Part shown: positions 2,369-64,000 of the stretch, piece by piece
Numbering within the stretch: position 1 is the stretch's first letter
Layout of the letters: each line of letters opens with the position of its first letter
NCBI RefSeq assembly: GCF_013364235.1
Contig: NZ_CP054919.1
Coordinates: 8,213,239-8,277,238 of the forward strand
DNA from: Kitasatospora sp. NA04385
Lineage (GTDB): Bacteria; Actinomycetota; Actinomycetes; Streptomycetales; Streptomycetaceae
Length of the DNA: 64,000 nucleotides
Direction: 5' to 3'
Translations under genes and position numbers: made by a program
Notes under the pieces: generated by a model
What the model saw: the letters and a program-made list of their open reading frames with translations, nothing else
Told to the model about the DNA's origin: nothing
Databases searched by the model: none

Positions 2369-3166
2369 ATGAACCACGGCACCACAGCCCACCTCGACGG
2401 TTTTCAGTACGGGTGGGTGAACCCCGTGGTGGCGTACCTCATCGCCTGCGTGGGAGCCGCGATCGGGCTGCGCTGCACCGCGCGGGCCATGACCCTGCGG
2501 CCGCAGAAGCGTTTCGGCTGGCTGGCGCTGGCCGCCGGTGCGTTCGGGTGCGGCATCTGGTCCATGCACTTCATCGCGATGCTCGGCTTCATGGTCGGCT
2601 CCTCCAGCCTGGTCTACGACATCCCGCTCACCCTGCTGAGCCTGCTGGTGGCCGTCGTCGTGGTCGGCCTCGGCATCGGCATCGTCGGCTACCGGGGCAA
2701 GAGCACCGGCACCCTGCTGGTCAGCGGCGTCCTCACCGGCTGCGGCGTCGCCGTCATGCACTACCTCGGCATGGCCGCGATGCAGGTCGAGGGCCGGGTC
2801 TCGTACGACGTCCTGCTGGTCGTCGCCTCCGTCGCGATCGCCATCGCCGCCGCCACCACCGCGCTGTGGATGACGCTCAACGTCAAGGGCCTGCCCTCCG
2901 CGCTCGGTTCCGCGGCGGTCGCCGGCGTCGCGGTGGTCGCCATGCACTACACCGCGATGGCCGCCGTCACCGTCACGCTCGACGGCCGCCCCCTCGGCGG
3001 CGGCACGCCCGCCTCGCAGTTCATCCTGCCGCTGGCCGTCGGCATCATGGTCGTCCTGGCCGTCGCGGGCATCGCCATCGCCCTCTCCCCGCAGGACCCG
3101 GAGCACGGCGAAGGCCCCGCGGTGGAGCCGATCCGGGTCGACCTGTTCGGCCAGGAGCGCTACTGA
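2369..3166 (+). CDS. MHYT-domain integral membrane sensor
   Basis: A 265-residue membrane protein with about seven hydrophobic segments. Three MHYT-type motifs lie at residues 66-71 (MHFIAM), 130-135 (MHYLGM) and 192-197 (MHYTAM), each near a membrane face. In this family the Met/His residues are proposed to bind copper and to sense a diatomic gas. Here the domain stands alone, with no GGDEF/EAL output domain, and only a short C-terminal tail follows. I chose ATG 2369 because the sequence upstream in the same frame is not membrane-like. Its output partner is not evident from the neighbours. Confidence 0.88.
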   Translation: MNHGTTAHLDGFQYGWVNPVVAYLIACVGAAIGLRCTARAMTLRPQKRFGWLALAAGAFGCGIWSMHFIAMLGFMVGSSSLVYDIPLTLLSLLVAVVVVGLGIGIVGYRGKSTGTLLVSGVLTGCGVAVMHYLGMAAMQVEGRVSYDVLLVVASVAIAIAAATTALWMTLNVKGLPSALGSAAVAGVAVVAMHYTAMAAVTVTLDGRPLGGGTPASQFILPLAVGIMVVLAVAGIAIALSPQDPEHGEGPAVEPIRVDLFGQERY

Positions 3167-57748: not shown

Positions 57749-58681
57749 TCAGCCGCGCTCGATGTCCCCGGAGCGGGAGGGGACGGCGTCCAGGGCGGCC
57801 AGCGTCGCCCCGTCCAGGACCAGGGCCCCGGCGGCGGCGTTGGCCCGCAGGTGGTCCGGGTCGGCGGTGCCGGGGATGAGGAGCGTGTTCGGGGCGTGGT
57901 GGAGCAGCCAGGCCAGGCCGACCTGCGCGGGGGAGGCGCCGAGCGCCCCGGCCGCGGCGAGGACGGCGGGCTCCTCGACGACCTTCGGGATGCCCGGGTA
58001 CGCGCCGCCGAGCGGGAAGTACGGCACCCAGGCGACGCCCTCGGCGCGGCACAGCCGCAGCAGGTCCTCGTCCTCGCGCGACACCAGGCTGTAGGCGTTC
58101 TGCACGCAGGCGACGCCCGCCGGGAGGGCCCGGCGCAGCTCGTCGGCGCCGACGCTGCTGAGGCCCAGGGCGCCTATCTTGCCCGCGTCGCGCAGCTCGG
58201 TCAGCACGGCGAGCTGGTCGTCCAGGTCGACCACCTGGTCGCCCTCGGCGCGCAGCCCGGGGCCGTGGCTCGCGCGGCGCAGGTTGACCAGCGGAATCCG
58301 CTCCCACCCGAGGCTGCGGAGGTTGTCCTCGACGGCGGCGCGGAGCTGTTCGGGGCGCTGGGCCAGGCGCAGCGGGATCGGGCCGTCGGCGGGCTCGGCG
58401 CCGACCTTGCTGGCGACCAGGACGTCGTCCCGGGCGGTGAACGCGGCGCCGATCGCCTCGTTGGCGGAGCCCGCGCCGTAGAACTGGGCGGTGTCGACGT
58501 GGTCGATGCCCAGGTCGGCGGCGGTGCGCAGCAGGGCGACGGCGGCGGTGCGGTCCAGGCGGCGCAGCTGCATGGCGCCGAAGCCGACCCGGGAGACGGT
58601 GCGGCCCGCGAGCGTGCCGGGCCCGCCGGCCCGTTCCGCGCCGGCGGCGGTGAACTGCGGGGACCCGAGCGTGGAGGACAT
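57749..58681 (-). CDS. Aldo/keto reductase
   Basis: 310 residues. AKR blocks: VSRVGFGAMQLRRL, LGIDHVDTAQFYGAGSANEAIG (catalytic Asp and Tyr), VLVASKVG (catalytic Lys) and GKIGALGLSSVGADELRRA, with the late LIPGTADPDHLRANAAA cofactor loop. It reduces aldehydes or ketones with NADPH; no substrate seen. ATG 58681 with GGGAG upstream. It is divergent from a TetR regulator, with the operator at 58714-58730 in its promoter. Confidence 0.92.
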   Translation of the reverse strand: MSSTLGSPQFTAAGAERAGGPGTLAGRTVSRVGFGAMQLRRLDRTAAVALLRTAADLGIDHVDTAQFYGAGSANEAIGAAFTARDDVLVASKVGAEPADGPIPLRLAQRPEQLRAAVEDNLRSLGWERIPLVNLRRASHGPGLRAEGDQVVDLDDQLAVLTELRDAGKIGALGLSSVGADELRRALPAGVACVQNAYSLVSREDEDLLRLCRAEGVAWVPYFPLGGAYPGIPKVVEEPAVLAAAGALGASPAQVGLAWLLHHAPNTLLIPGTADPDHLRANAAAGALVLDGATLAALDAVPSRSGDIERG

Positions 58682-58713
58682 GGCGATCTCGCTCCCGTGA
58701 GACGATGGAGGTA

Positions 58714-58730
58714 AACGGAGGAACTCCGTT
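58714..58730. promoter_or_regulatory. TetR-type palindrome at AKR promoter
   Basis: AACGGAG-GAA-CTCCGTT, a 7-bp inverted repeat with a 3-bp spacer, lies just upstream of the AKR gene. Confidence 0.78.
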
Positions 58731-58748
58731 ACCGCCACCGTAGCACTA

Positions 58749-58765
58749 ACCGGAGGGACTCCGTT
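58749..58765. promoter_or_regulatory. Second TetR-type palindrome overlapping the TetR ribosome site
   Basis: ACCGGAG-GGA-CTCCGTT ends at the base before the TTG start at 58766 and contains the Shine-Dalgarno GGAGGG. Its similarity to the site at 58714 suggests that one repressor binds both. Confidence 0.78.
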
Positions 58766-59539
58766 TTGGCTTCTCCCGACCCCGCCGCTTCCGGCTCCGC
58801 CGCCTCCGACCCCGCAGCCCCCGGCTCGGGCGCTTCCGGCTCCGCCGTCCCCGGCTCCGCCGTCCCCGGCTCGGGCGCCCCCGGCCCAGGCGCTTCCGGA
58901 TTGCCCACGGCCGGGAGGCCGCCCCGGGCCGACGCCCGGCGCAACCGCGAACGGCTGCTCGTCGTCGCCCGGGACGCCTTCGCCGCGACCGGGGGCACGG
59001 CCACCCTCGACGCCATCGCCCGCGAGGCCGGCGTCGGCATCGGCACCCTCTACCGGCACTTCCCCACCCGCGAGGCGCTCGTGGAGGCGATCTACGCCAG
59101 CGAGCTCGACGCCGTGGTCACCAGCGCGCCCGCCCTGCTCGCCCAGCTGCCGCCCGAGGCGGCGCTGCGCGCCTGGATGGACCGCTACGCCGCGTTCTTC
59201 GCGGCCAAACGCGGCATCTCCGAGACCCTCCGGGCCGGCCGCGCCTCGGGCACCATCGCGACCCCGGCCGCCCGGGAGCGGATCACCGCGGCGATCGCCG
59301 CGATCCTGGACGCCGGGGCGAAGGCCGGTTCGCTGCGCGACGACGTGCCCGCCGAGCGGGTCACCATGATGCTCCTGGGCGTCTTCCTCTCCGCCTCGGC
59401 GAGCAACGACCCCGAGCTGACCGGCCCGCTCCTCGACCTCGTCGCGGACGCCCTGCGCCCCGTCGCCCGACCGGGCCTCCCGCCTCGCTCGGGAGGACCG
59501 GCTCGCGGGGGCGGTCAGGCGGTGGGGGAGCCCCAGTAG
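58766..59539 (+). CDS. TetR-family transcriptional regulator with repeat-rich N-terminus
   Basis: 257 residues from TTG 58766. GGAGGG and the operator lie directly in front, which supports this rare start codon. The first ~45 residues are Gly/Ser/Ala/Pro repeats (GSAVPGSAVPGSG). The TetR helix-turn-helix follows at ~60-105 (RERLLVVARDAFAATGGTATLDAIAREAGVGIGTLYRHFPTREALVEAIY), and the ligand domain to ~245. A later in-frame TTG (58901) lacks a ribosome site. Two copies of one palindrome control this gene and the divergent aldo/keto reductase. The last codons overlap the next convergent gene by 25 bp. Confidence 0.88.
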   Translation: MASPDPAASGSAASDPAAPGSGASGSAVPGSAVPGSGAPGPGASGLPTAGRPPRADARRNRERLLVVARDAFAATGGTATLDAIAREAGVGIGTLYRHFPTREALVEAIYASELDAVVTSAPALLAQLPPEAALRAWMDRYAAFFAAKRGISETLRAGRASGTIATPAARERITAAIAAILDAGAKAGSLRDDVPAERVTMMLLGVFLSASASNDPELTGPLLDLVADALRPVARPGLPPRSGGPARGGGQAVGEPQ

Positions 59540-60354
59540 CCGGGGTCGGCGGCCTGCCGCCCGCGCAGGTCCTCGCGGACGGCCGCCGCCAGGCGCAGGG
59601 TGTCCTTGCGGCAGACCCGCGCCCCGATCACCGCACCGGCCAGCAGCGGGGCGAGGGTCGGCAGCCGGCGCAGCCCCGAGCGGGTCAGGCGCTTGCTCAC
59701 CTGCCGGCGCAGCGCCGCGCTCCGGTTCAGCGCCAGCAGCGCTCCCGGGCGGGTCAGGTCCAGGCCGCGGCCCTCGCTCCACACCGCCAGGTACGCGTAC
59801 GAACGCTGTCGGGCGGACCCGGCCGGGACCTGGCCGTAGACCGCGTACAGCTCGGCGATCAGCTTCAGCTCGATCGCCGCGGAGGCCAGCAGCTCGGACG
59901 CCAGCTCGACGGGCATCGCCAGCGGCACGGGCATCATCGCCACCGTCCCGGCGCCCGCGCCGACCGCCGTCGAGGCCCGGGCCGACCCGGCGACGAGCAG
60001 GTCGGCCAAGTCCTCCGGGGTGCGGGCCCCGGGATGCTGGGAGCGCAGCGTGGCCAGGTCCCGGACCGGAATCCGCGGGGCCGCGTCCAGCAGGCGCTCG
60101 GTCAGCATCCGCAGGCCGCCGCGGGAGCCCGCCCCGAGCCGTCGGCCGCTGCGGCCCAGGCTGCGGCCCAGACTGTGTCCCAGCCGCCGGGCCAGCGTGC
60201 CCATCCGGCGCGTCGGCCCGCCCCGGGAGCCGCCCTTCTCCTCGACCTCCACCTCGGCGGCGATCCGCGCCAGCTCCTCCGTCACCTCCTGCGCGAGTGC
60301 GTCCGGCTCCCCGGGGGAGCGCTCCGGCAGATCCGGCTCACCGATCGGCACCAT
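59515..60354 (-). CDS. Conserved protein of unknown function with hydrophobic centre
   Basis: 279 residues, ATG 60354 with AGGGAAG upstream. The first third is charged (QEVTEELARIAAEVEVEEKGG, LGRSLGRSGRRLG), the centre hydrophobic (ASTAVGAGAGTVAMMPVPLAMPVELASELLASAAIELKLIAELYAVYG) and the end basic (LRRQVSKRLTRSGLRRLPTLAPLLAGAVIGARV). It resembles EcsC-like or other membrane-associated actinobacterial proteins in layout only. The 193-bp region upstream (60355-60547) holds no gene I can support. Confidence 0.68.
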   Translation of the reverse strand: MVPIGEPDLPERSPGEPDALAQEVTEELARIAAEVEVEEKGGSRGGPTRRMGTLARRLGHSLGRSLGRSGRRLGAGSRGGLRMLTERLLDAAPRIPVRDLATLRSQHPGARTPEDLADLLVAGSARASTAVGAGAGTVAMMPVPLAMPVELASELLASAAIELKLIAELYAVYGQVPAGSARQRSYAYLAVWSEGRGLDLTRPGALLALNRSAALRRQVSKRLTRSGLRRLPTLAPLLAGAVIGARVCRKDTLRLAAAVREDLRGRQAADPGYWGSPTA

Positions 60355-60547
60355 GTGCTTCCCTCCACCTCTGCCCCGCCCGCCCGGCTGCCCGGCGGGC
60401 GGTGGGTGTCCGGGCACGGACCTTCCCCCTTCGTGTGCCCGCCCCCGGCCCGCGCAGTCCCCGGCCGGTCCCGGTCGTCCCGGCGCCGGGCGGAGCAGGA
60501 CGGGCAGCACCGCGTACCCGGCCCTCAGGGCCGGCGGGGGCGCCGCC

Positions 60548-60766
60548 TCACCAGGCGAAGATCCGTCCGACGGCGAAGCCGATGCAGGACGCGACCATCA
60601 CGACGATGATCAGCAGGGGAATCCAACCGGGCCAGGCCGTGTGCAGTTCCACGGACTCGGGCGTGGAGATGGCGTGCGTCGTGGAGGCCTCGCACTCGGG
60701 CGTCTCGGTCGGCAGGGAGTGGCCGGCCAACTGCACCGGGGCGGGAACGGGGTGGCTGACTGACAT
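60548..60766 (-). CDS. Small membrane-anchored protein
   Basis: 72 residues, GGAGG before ATG 60766. A polar N-terminus is followed by one C-terminal membrane segment (PGWIPLLIIVVMVASCIGFAVGRIF). The few Cys and His residues (CEAS, THA) show no motif. It lies just upstream of the EcsC-like gene on the same strand. Function unknown. Confidence 0.62.
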   Translation of the reverse strand: MSVSHPVPAPVQLAGHSLPTETPECEASTTHAISTPESVELHTAWPGWIPLLIIVVMVASCIGFAVGRIFAW

Positions 60767-60937
60767 GGCGTCCTCCGATGTCCGAACACCTTGGTGCGCT
60801 GCTCTGTTGCTTCCCTTCCACGGTCCACCCGACGCGGCCCATGCGCAAAAGCCGCCCGGCGCACCGAACGAGGACGGACGGGCGGGCGGGCGGGGCCGGG
60901 CCCGGGACGGGGCCGGGCAGGTCGCGGCGCGGACGGT

Positions 60938-61510
60938 TCAGCTCGGGGTGGCCTGGGCGCCGATGACGCCCCAGCCGGCGTCGCGGGCGCGCTGCCAGAC
61001 GGGCACCAACCCGTCGAGCAGGGCGGCGGCGTCCGCGTCCTGGACCTCGTCGAGCACGGCGCGCAGCCGCTGTTCGGCGGCCGCCCGCTGCGCGGGGTCG
61101 AGGGAGAGCGCCGCCGCGACACCGGGCAAGGTGTCGCGGACCCGGCCGGGGGACAGCACGAAGTGGCCGAACCAGCCCGGCAGCGCCGCGAACCGCTCAG
61201 GGCCCAGGGCGTGGGCGAGACCGACGGCCGGGTAGCCCTTGCGGCACGAGGCCGCGAGGGACGGGCCGGACTCCGCGTGGGCGTTCCACACCTCGTAGAG
61301 CAGGTCGAGGTGCTCGTCCAGCAGGTCGGGAGCGGCCAGGTCGTACTGCTCCGGCACGCAGCGCAGATCGAGCTCCCCGCGCCGCCACCGCTCGAACCCT
61401 CCCTGCCCGGCGGCGGCCTGACCTTCGATCAGCGGCCCCAACCGGGGGCGCACCTCGGCGACGACCGAACCGGGCACCGCCATGACGATCCACCACCCCG
61501 TGACACTCAT
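60938..61510 (-). CDS. Protein of unknown function
   Basis: 190 residues, ATG 61510 (GTG 61516 is an alternative). Tryptophan-rich start (SVTGWWIVMAVPG), then a likely helical body (LLDEHLDLLYEVWNAHAESG, RFAALPGWFGHFVLSP, AAEQRLRAVLDEVQDADAAALLDGL). No recognised domain. The region of 61511-61679 behind it, up to the IS element, holds no further gene. Confidence 0.6.
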   Translation of the reverse strand: MSVTGWWIVMAVPGSVVAEVRPRLGPLIEGQAAAGQGGFERWRRGELDLRCVPEQYDLAAPDLLDEHLDLLYEVWNAHAESGPSLAASCRKGYPAVGLAHALGPERFAALPGWFGHFVLSPGRVRDTLPGVAAALSLDPAQRAAAEQRLRAVLDEVQDADAAALLDGLVPVWQRARDAGWGVIGAQATPS

Positions 61511-61679
61511 GCCCACAGGCTACGCAGCGCCCGCCGCCCGCTCAGCTCCTCCGCTCGCCCAGGACGCAGAACTAGATGTTCTGGAGTGAGACATGGTACG
61601 GCGCTACTGGTCAGGGAGTCGGACACTGCGGTTGACGGGCGACTCTCGCTCCCTACACGGGACATGGGAGACGTACCTA

Positions 61680-62846
61680 CTGACTTCGGCTCGTCAGGGT
61701 GACGTTGTGGTGTCGAGGGCCAGGCCGGTGCCAGCTATGAAGCCGTCGAGGGTGTCGGGCCGGTACTGCAGGCGCTTGAGTCGGTTGCGGACGAGGGCTT
61801 CGAGGCGGTCGAGGGCCATGACGGCGAGGTTGGCGAGGCTGTGCTTGACGTGTGCCCAGACCCGTTCGACGGGGTTGAGGTCGGGCGCGTAGGCGGGAAG
61901 GAGGAAGACCGTCAGCCAGGTGCGCTGGGAGATCAACTCGCGTATGGCGTGGGAGACATGGGTGTTCAGGCGGTCCCGGACCAGCACGATCGGCGCCTTG
62001 ACGAGGTGGTGGACGCCGTCGACCAGGGCGATGAAGTCGCGCTCGCCCATGCTGCGGCGCTGACCCCTGCCCGCGGGGTGGGTGCGCAAGCGGTGGCACA
62101 GCCTGGTGCGCGAGCCCGGCCGCATGGCGATCAGTCCCGCCACGGACAGGCATCCCGAGCGGTGACCGCTGACGGTCACGACCAGGGTGCGGCCTCGCCG
62201 GCCCCAGGTACGTCCCCTGAGTGGCCGGCGGGTGAAGCCTGCCTCGTCCTCGAAACAGATGTAGCCCCCGCAGGCCGCCCGGGCGCTTTTACCTCCGCCC
62301 AGGTCACCTCCTTCCAGGCGGTGACGGCCTGCTCGTCCCGCTCGGCCACCCGCCGCGCGGGACCTGCGGGCTGAAGCCGAGCCTGTGCATCAGCCGCGTC
62401 GCCCCGGACACGCTGTAGGAAACGTGGAACTTCCGCCCGATCAGCGTGGTCACCCGCGAAGCGGTCCACACCTGGTCCTCCACCCAGCCGTATGCCGCCG
62501 GACCCTGGTCCAGATACGCGGCGCGCTTGGCCGGACAGCGCGGCGACAGGCGGCACCGCGACCCGCCCGGACCGCGAGAGGCCAGAGCCTGCACGCCACC
62601 GCCGCGCCACAACTGGTGCCACTGGTAGGCCGACTTCGAACTCACCCGCAGGCGCCGGGCCACCTCCGCCGGCTTGACCTCCTGCTCGAACAACTCGGCC
62701 GCCTACACCCGCACCGACTCCCGACGCAGCCGTCCCGCGCCGGTCAGCCCGCCCCCATCCGCATACCTCACACACCACCGCATACAGCTGCCGCAACGAG
62801 CTCGTCAGCCGATTCGGGACATTTCACCCTGACGAGCCGAAGTCAG
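61680..62846. mobile_element. IS630-family insertion sequence (decayed copy)
   Basis: A 1167-bp element with about 24-bp terminal inverted repeats: CTGACTTCGGCTCGTCAGGG at the left end (61680) matches the complement at the right (ending 62846). TA dinucleotides flank it (61678-61679 and 62847-62848), the target duplication of the IS630/Tc1-mariner group. The transposase inside is on the minus strand and broken. The right junction lies in the stop codon of a Nudix gene. Confidence 0.9.
61694..62783 (-). pseudogene. IS630 transposase, inactivated
   Basis: Reading from ATG 62783 gives RYADGGG, then a TAG at codon 27 (62703-62705) where a Gln would be expected. After it the HTH domain continues (AAELFEQEVKPAEVARRLRVSSKSAYQWHQLW). 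Near 62355-62362 one base is missing (VPR then RVAERDEQ in the next frame). Near 62287-62290 a TAAAAG run allows a -1 shift into GGYICFEDEAGFTRRP and the DDE domain with RLNTH and LPAYAPDLNPVERVW. The last shift may be normal programmed slippage in this family; the first two are inactivating. Confidence 0.85.
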
Positions 62847-63364
62847 TAGCCAAGCGGCCGTCCATCGTTGAGGAAGCCCGGACGTCCGCTTTCCAGCGCC
62901 TGCATTGCAGCACGGAACCGCGGCACAAGTCGTTCGCGGAGTAGTGTCTCTGCCGTCGCCGGACTGACCATGGCCACCTCGGTCAGCTCCGCATCATGCG
63001 GGTGTAGGGACTGCGCGTGTGAATCCGAGATCACCCCGCCATCGAGAATGAAGGCCAACTGGTCGTCCCAGGGACCATGCGGCGGCACCCACTCCACTAC
63101 GAGCAGGCCAAGAGGTGCGATGTCCAACCCAAGTTCTTCGCGCAGTTCGCGCCGCGCCGCGTCGTCGGGGGCTTCGTTGGCTTCCACCATCCCGCCAGGA
63201 AGGTCCCATCCGGGTTTGTAACCCGGGTTCACTACCAACACCATTCCGTCCGTGTTGCGGATGATCAGGTCCACCGCAACACGCTTCCGGGCTTGCTTGG
63301 CGTTGCCCTCGGCGAGATAGGCGTTCCACGCTTCTGGGTCATCGGGTGTTGGTGTGGTCCCCAC
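62843..63364 (-). CDS. Nudix hydrolase with IS-derived stop codon
   Basis: 173 residues from GTG 63364 (GGAAGGA upstream). Residues ~60-90 hold the Nudix box (GGMVEANEAPDDAARRELREELGL). The IS630 insertion at TA 62847-62848 changed the end: the original TAG stop was split, giving GGC TAC TGA, so one Tyr is added and the stop comes from the IS end. The 5' end overlaps the TPR gene by 26 bp, so the two are coupled. Lower GC than the rest of the window. Confidence 0.85.
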   Translation of the reverse strand: MGTTPTPDDPEAWNAYLAEGNAKQARKRVAVDLIIRNTDGMVLVVNPGYKPGWDLPGGMVEANEAPDDAARRELREELGLDIAPLGLLVVEWVPPHGPWDDQLAFILDGGVISDSHAQSLHPHDAELTEVAMVSPATAETLLRERLVPRFRAAMQALESGRPGFLNDGRPLGY

Positions 63365-64000
63365 TGCCGGATCCTTCCCTTGACGGCATGATGTCAGCCA
63401 GCAGCAGCGCACGGGTGCGGCGCGCCTGGTCGAAGTGCACCAGGTAGTCGCGGACCGACCCATGTGCCGCGTGTGGCTCTAGTGCATCACGGAAGCTGTC
63501 CAATTGGTGAACGACCCGAACGGACCCGAGAGTTGGACTGGTCGACAGCAGCTCGACTCCCACATGCAAGGCTTCTTCTAGCTCTCCGCGCTGAACGTAC
63601 ACCGTTGCGAGTGTAATTTTACTGAGGGCAAAGGACCGGGTACGACCGTGTTCCCGTAGACGCACCGCGCGTTCTGCGTGGTGTAGCGCATCGTCGTACC
63701 GGCCCAAGTCGGCGAACGTCAGTGCAGACTCGCTTGCCAGCGCAGCCTGATCAAAAGGGCTCAGCCATGGGTGCGTGTCGTCTGCTGCTGCCGCGAGTGC
63801 TTCGCGTGCTTGTTCCAGTGCTTGAGCAGCAGGACCTAGCCGTCCGAGCGTTGCAAGAGCACGGGCGTGCATGCTGTGAAGTCGAGCCGTGAGACTGGGC
63901 AGATGCGGCCCGCCATGCGCAAGCTGCATTCCCAACAGAGCCCAATGCGTTGCCTGTTGGGGATTGCCAGACTGTAGCGACAGGTGACTGCTGCTGGCAG
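63339..64000 (-). CDS. TPR-containing protein, probably C-terminal part of an XRE-type regulator (5' end outside window)
   Basis: The frame is open from the window edge to the stop at 63339, ~220 residues. It shows TPR-like helix pairs: GNPQQATHWALLGMQLAHGG, LHSMHARALATLGRLGPAAQALEQAREAL, ASESALTFADLGRYDDALHHAERAVRL and TLATVYVQRGELEEALHVGVELL. In streptomycetes such regions follow an N-terminal XRE-type helix-turn-helix and often sit before a Nudix gene, as here. The N-terminus is not seen, so DNA binding is inferred. GC and codon use are visibly lower than upstream of the IS. Confidence 0.75.
   Translation of the reverse strand, partial: ASSSHLSLQSGNPQQATHWALLGMQLAHGGPHLPSLTARLHSMHARALATLGRLGPAAQALEQAREALAAAADDTHPWLSPFDQAALASESALTFADLGRYDDALHHAERAVRLREHGRTRSFALSKITLATVYVQRGELEEALHVGVELLSTSPTLGSVRVVHQLDSFRDALEPHAAHGSVRDYLVHFDQARRTRALLLADIMPSREGSGSGDHTNTR

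Follow-up and report, generated by a model that had tools for sequence, protein, structure and literature searches.

The window analysed here is a stretch of 64,000 nucleotides from Kitasatospora sp. NA04385. Near its right-hand end, an insertion sequence (IS) separates the end of a Nudix hydrolase gene from the first codons of a serine-recombinase integrase gene. The features of this region, in window coordinates, are as follows.

61542..61571, minus strand: last codons of a glyoxalase-like (VOC) gene (FCVLGERRS, then stop), putatively one half of an attachment site.
61664..61679, plus strand: start of a serine-recombinase integrase gene, which the IS interrupts after five codons (MGDVP); 16 of 16 bases equal the integrase start of genome G011 (L110).
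61678..61679, no strand: TA at the integrase-side end of the IS, from the sequence and the own-genome copies.
61680..62846, 1167 bp: IS630-type insertion sequence with its transposase gene on the minus strand, recognised by terminal inverted repeats, two further own-genome copies and a DDE_3 domain.
61680..61702, plus strand: terminal inverted repeat CTGACTTCGGCTCGTCAGGGTGA on the integrase side, from repeat comparison and the own-genome copies.
62824..62846, minus strand: terminal inverted repeat on the Nudix side; its base 1 completes TAC and its bases 2-4 are the new stop TGA.
62843..63364, minus strand: Nudix hydrolase gene, 173 codons plus TGA; the last codon TAC and the TGA straddle the IS end, and the GTG start was chosen by homology.
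62847..62848, no strand: TA at the Nudix-side end of the IS, from the sequence and the own-genome copies.
63339..63998, minus strand: gene for a TPR protein upstream of the Nudix gene, running off the window edge; L258 has a homologue upstream of its own Nudix gene.

The window element is an ordinary IS630-type element. IS630-family elements measure ~1.1-1.2 kb; the window IS has 1167 bp and perfect 23-nt terminal repeats with a TA at either side. The repeat comparison gave arms of 26 nt, because the TA and one flank base match as well. The genome, a single contig of 8.40 Mb, holds two more full-length copies (91%). Both begin and end on identical bases in the context cTA-IS-TAa, which fixes the boundaries of the window IS. 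TA flanks both ends of all three copies, the target duplication of the IS630 family, and the two TAs of the window IS may stem from two different sites. Together with the DDE_3 domain of the transposase, these features bear out the sequence-only reading, which had named an IS630-type element with a TA target.

The transposase of the window IS matched DDE_3 with E 1.6e-15 in a domain scan that left out its N-terminal part; that of a relative (L195) matched both HTH_33 (PF13592, E 8.5e-24) and DDE_3 (PF13358, E 2.2e-22). The window copy is not intact: compared with the three other aligned copies, it lacks one base near element position 485 (window ~62362), whereas a 1,168-bp element of genome G060 is free of frame breaks. 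In the window IS and its relatives the transposase is split over two overlapping frames. The conserved GTAAAAG at the frame crossing suggests programmed frameshifting, to judge from the aligned copies (the remaining copies have GTAGAAG, 4, or GTGAAAG, 1). TA flanks, terminal inverted repeats and a DDE transposase with a helix-turn-helix N-terminus are shared with IS630 of Shigella sonnei and with the IS630/Tc1/mariner superfamily (ISY100; from an excerpt of PMC2170065). In contrast to these elements, the window IS group has the two overlapping frames, with GTAAAAG at the crossing in 22 of the 27 copies shown, and, unlike IS630 of S. sonnei, it prefers YTAR rather than CTAG, TTAA being commonest at paired ends. 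CTAG is given as an IS630 target by a title cited in the reference list of PMC2170065. Both ends of the window IS read CTGAC. One sister group ends in CTGAAC, with inconsistent TA flanks, and another in CTCAGG, which supplies no immediate stop; the CTGA end is thus not universal among relatives. In genome G060, a ~2.8 kb unit made of two related IS copies with ~535 bp between them occurs in three copies at different sites (L194, L195, L196) and looks, from this arrangement, like a composite transposon.

The product of 62843-63364 contains a Nudix domain (PF00293, E 4e-19), as the sequence-only reading had supposed. The gene tail reads CGG CCG CTT GGC TAC TGA, with GGC TAC TGA at 62851-62843 of the minus strand. 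The Tyr codon consists of the TA and IS base 1, and the TGA of IS bases 2-4; the gain of one tyrosine and the supply of the stop by the IS, both proposed earlier, are confirmed. Deleting the IS and one TA in silico, with the base after the TA taken from the far flank, yields GGC TAG, again the letters that had been reported. Because both IS ends read CTGAC, a TAC TGA ending is automatic for any gene that enters the IS with the TA as codon positions 1 and 2, and the only element of chance is the frame, in which a random TA falls with odds of 1 in 3; the letters involve none. The protein presumably continues to function after the gain of the tyrosine.

We compared the other flank with related genomes, using window positions 58000-64000, which extend past the IS, as the query against G011, a genome of the same genus. 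Positions 61556-61679 gave a 125-bp match of 82% to G011 (L110), ending on the base that adjoins the IS. In L110 the integrase frame continues over the TA (ATG GGA GAC GTA CCT AAC CCC; MGDVPNPPAGTVFTETLRGVRCIRLSV..., MGDVPNPPAGT...), and the L110 DNA upstream of its TA gave no match to the Nudix side of the window. The window sequence, ATG GGA GAC GTA CC(T A) at 61664-61679, instead enters the IS and is translated as MGDVPTDFGSSG before a stop. A 559-aa relative of this integrase from G037 has Resolvase (PF00239) and Recombinase (PF07508) domains; the window keeps five codons. No further integrase pieces were found in the window or in the 126.7 kb to the contig end, either with the full 559-aa G037 protein (E 0.01) or with the 90 N-terminal residues of the G011 integrase as query. 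By these matches, the far flank represents the beginning of an integrase gene, and the IS stands where the remainder should start. The sequence-only reading had treated the G of the TAG as the Nudix gene's own base and the event as one clean insertion. Neither claim was supported: the far flank holds the beginning of the integrase gene, severed where the IS starts, so that the flanks joined into an 'empty site' are probably chimeric. This integrase is broken elsewhere as well: the frame is interrupted in G011 and G093 (L430, L432), and in Streptomyces tateyamensis (L259, 3200-4675) the match stops at residue 132 and is followed by a transposase-like ORF, which we take to be IS1380-like.

This integrase is encoded downstream of the Nudix gene, on the opposite strand, in Kitasatospora sp. 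MBT63 (L258) and S. tateyamensis (L259), which scored highest as Nudix relatives among the 80 loci retained from a genome-contig scan. The Nudix stop is at 3019 and integrase residue 202 at 5511 in L258; the corresponding positions in L259 are 3031 for the stop and 5124 for residue 10. The DNA between the two genes is variable and rearranged. These two were the only integrase matches (E 1e-5) among 128 Nudix-neighbourhood loci, which include some places fetched twice; the flanks of the other 126 spanned only 1.5-2.5 kb. The ancestral order was likely a convergent pair of Nudix and integrase genes, whose stop and start, respectively, lay ~2-3 kb apart, as judged from these two loci.

The N-terminal half of the glyoxalase-like gene lies ~6.3 kb from its tail, outside the window (G000:C1 ~8281088), and AGTTCTG occurs at the break in both parts. 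On this evidence the two gene parts are probably the attachment sites of a decayed element. We liken this host of the IS to the actinobacterial integrative elements with a serine integrase. It has in common with them that an integrase start adjoins a split glyoxalase-like gene and that Nudix and TPR genes lie within; in contrast to them it lacks the integrase, and only ~6.3 kb is left.

The length of Nudix homologues, counted at the C-terminus from a conserved DG, bears on the original position of the stop. Of 80 homologues, 52 match the window protein in length once its tyrosine is discounted, 5 exceed that length by one residue, 18 exceed it by more and 5 fall short of it; the stop is TGA in 53, TAG in 21 and TAA in 6. 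The four nearest in the genus share 68-71% protein identity with the window protein. Two of these, L016 and L018, end at the inferred length (DGRPIC and DGRPIF, compared with DGRPLG in the window), and the other two, L017 and L019, are longer. Of the integrase-bearing relatives, L258 has a Nudix protein of the inferred length, and that of L259 is four residues longer, so the Nudix-side TA could also have been in a Tyr codon. The earlier proposal that the TA came from the Nudix stop is thus supported by the majority of homologues and weakened by two of the four nearest, and the longer C-termini that would have spoken against it are present in a minority. Weighing the homologue lengths and the YTAR preference of the group, we judge it likely that the Nudix-side TA belonged to the stop codon. 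No empty copy of the window locus was found in 70 same-genus genomes, in 394 genomes of the family (E limit 1e-40) or in the 80 loci kept of 122 in the genome-contig scan; the closest Nudix genes elsewhere have 77-78% DNA identity.

Our preferred reading, which we hold to be probable, is that the IS630-type element stands at a deletion junction within an integrative element that has since decayed. The glyoxalase-like gene would have been the insertion site of this older element, which encoded a serine integrase and carried the Nudix and integrase genes convergently on opposite strands. Two TAs, at the end of the Nudix gene and at codon 5/6 of the integrase gene, would then have been occupied by IS copies, or by a single copy accompanied by a neighbouring rearrangement. 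Everything between the two TA sites would have been lost, leaving a single IS and no integrase. Recombination between two IS copies in the same orientation, or one copy with an adjacent deletion, could have produced this outcome, and either route would leave a TA on each side. If the Nudix-side TA was, as is probable, the first two bases of the Nudix stop, the C-TGA end of the IS would have let the Nudix protein keep all its residues, gain one tyrosine and stop at once. We infer the recombination route and the original third base of the Nudix codon, as well as, since no intact copy of the window locus was found, the order of events.

That one IS jumped cleanly into the TA of a TAG stop belonging to the Nudix gene, the integrase having been lost in a prior deletion ending at codon 5, appears unlikely. 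It would imply an IS-free Nudix gene in which GGC TAG was joined straight to GTACGTCTCCCAT. The joined flanks do form GGC TAG, which contains the CTAG described for IS630, and the IS group has inserted in this manner elsewhere, in a LysE-type gene of G037 (L183) with a far flank that is collinear in L379 and L381. However, the integrase homology stops at the IS boundary, and the prior deletion would have had to end by chance at the exact TA later used by the IS. Similarly improbable is a Nudix-side TA in an internal or final Tyr codon (TAC or TAT), which would leave the gene a few residues shorter or unchanged and would fit either route of formation. It agrees with the 23 of 80 homologues, among them L017 and L019, that exceed the inferred ancestor, with IS copies known in Tyr codons (L168, CTA/TAC; L446), and with the cupin gene hit in L214, a relative of which natively ends in TAC TGA; against it, 52 of 80 homologues and L016 and L018 stop exactly at the inferred site, and the IS group favours R after YTA. 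The reading of a clean insertion in a TAG is hence corrected to a probable deletion scar, with the Nudix-side IS end likely in a stop codon. With the deletion scar, loss of the integrase in the same event would appear to have fixed the integrative element in place. A stop-codon insertion should not be read from joined flanks alone, as the far flank may be another gene's.

Insertions of the group were also examined at other loci. In L171 the IS lies in the stop of a mutator-type transposase gene (PF00872; presumably IS256-like), the filled site reading CGT TAC TGA; among 12 related loci, the 11 that were readable stop at the same codon (8 TAA, 2 TAG, 1 TGA). In L183 the LysE-type gene reads GAC TAC TGA, all 9 related loci have their stop, a TGA, at this codon, and both flanks are contiguous in empty relatives. 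As these two comparisons with relatives show, the IS group does insert into stop codons and replace them by Tyr-TGA. Exact stop-codon insertions are indeed expected from the YTAR preference and the CTGA ends. We found no description of IS630 elements using stop codons as targets in the titles and opening lines of abstracts that made up the literature covered. Both own-genome copies (L237) looked like stop hits at first. One is plausibly a stop hit at a 105-aa ORF, given a homologue (L407) that is 61% identical and one residue longer; the codon-model rule calls this site 'internal', on the other strand. The 112-aa ORF at the other own-genome copy was rejected as a stop hit: its homologue L404 is 75% identical in DNA and only 45% in protein, so this frame is probably not coding.

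A first sample comprised 27 complete, non-duplicate insertions, the window excluded. It leaves out two flanks that were duplicates, L195 and L196, as well as 65 IS ends without a partner, of which six or seven, in L163, L188 and L191, were then re-paired into three insertions. By the codon-model rule, 6 of the 27 lie in a stop (L162, L171, L175, L183, L209, L214), a class defined only after inspection of the data; 1.16 were expected from matched sites (P 0.00076), and a single pooled YTAR rate gives P 0.027. The hit in L214 is doubtful because its relative natively ends in TAC TGA, and L168, initially counted as a stop hit, was moved, its codon being Tyr. The unpaired ends L173, L178, L180 and L213 also scored as stop frame, the partner flank of each being missing. 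The rule calls the window site itself 'none', the Nudix codons scoring low. For a plasmid sample, 110 records matched, 42 of them over at least 80% of the IS, and 24 of the 25 hits listed gave 21 non-duplicate insertions. None of these 21 was a strict stop hit; 5 lay inside genes, 1 in a Tyr codon and 15 were uncalled. In plasmid locus L456 one annotated CDS ends 4 nt inside the IS, below the threshold of the rule. Pooling both samples gives 6 of 48 compared with ~2.1 expected (P near 0.02 by our own arithmetic), a result that is weaker without L214. We do not claim an excess at stop codons beyond the YTAR preference, as the 6 of 27 was not replicated in the plasmids.

The target preference itself was marked. 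YTAR was the target of 18 of the 27 insertions, compared with 345 of 9172 background TA sites (1.2 Mb); the 27 targets were TTAA in 9, CTAA/TTAG in 9, CTAG in none and other in 9. One of the duplicates left out, L196, has CTA/TAG. In the plasmid sample 11 of 21 were at YTAR, with 1 CTAG, and 3 of 21 were without a clean TA pair. By the codon-model rule, the 345 YTAR background sites fall at stops in 44 cases, inside genes in 36 and in no called gene in 265; over all 9172 background TAs, 168 are at stops and 6122 inside genes. In a third background, the IS flanks themselves, 6 of 94 YTAR sites are at stops and 16 inside genes.

Since YTAR is seldom inside genes (36 of 345, compared with 6122 of 9172 for all TAs) and the IS end restores a stop when a TAR stop is hit, little damage is to be expected. 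This offers a simple, testable reason for the spread of a TA-targeting IS through GC-rich genomes with little harm, and self-restoring stops from YTAR and CTGA ends are a modestly interesting wider point. As a long shot, this IS630 subgroup might swap stop for stop in GC-rich genomes by evolved design: YTAR is rare inside genes and yet contains TAA and TAG, the CTGA ends give Tyr-TGA from either side, and insertion at a gene end, being near harmless, may be a safe landing that was selected and not a by-product. In another frame, annotated genes in L437 (2746-3567), L436 (1426-1623) and L453 (1384-1623) extend 23 nt past the IS boundary and terminate at the TGA of the terminal repeat; this ending is the other-frame counterpart of the Tyr-TGA ending.
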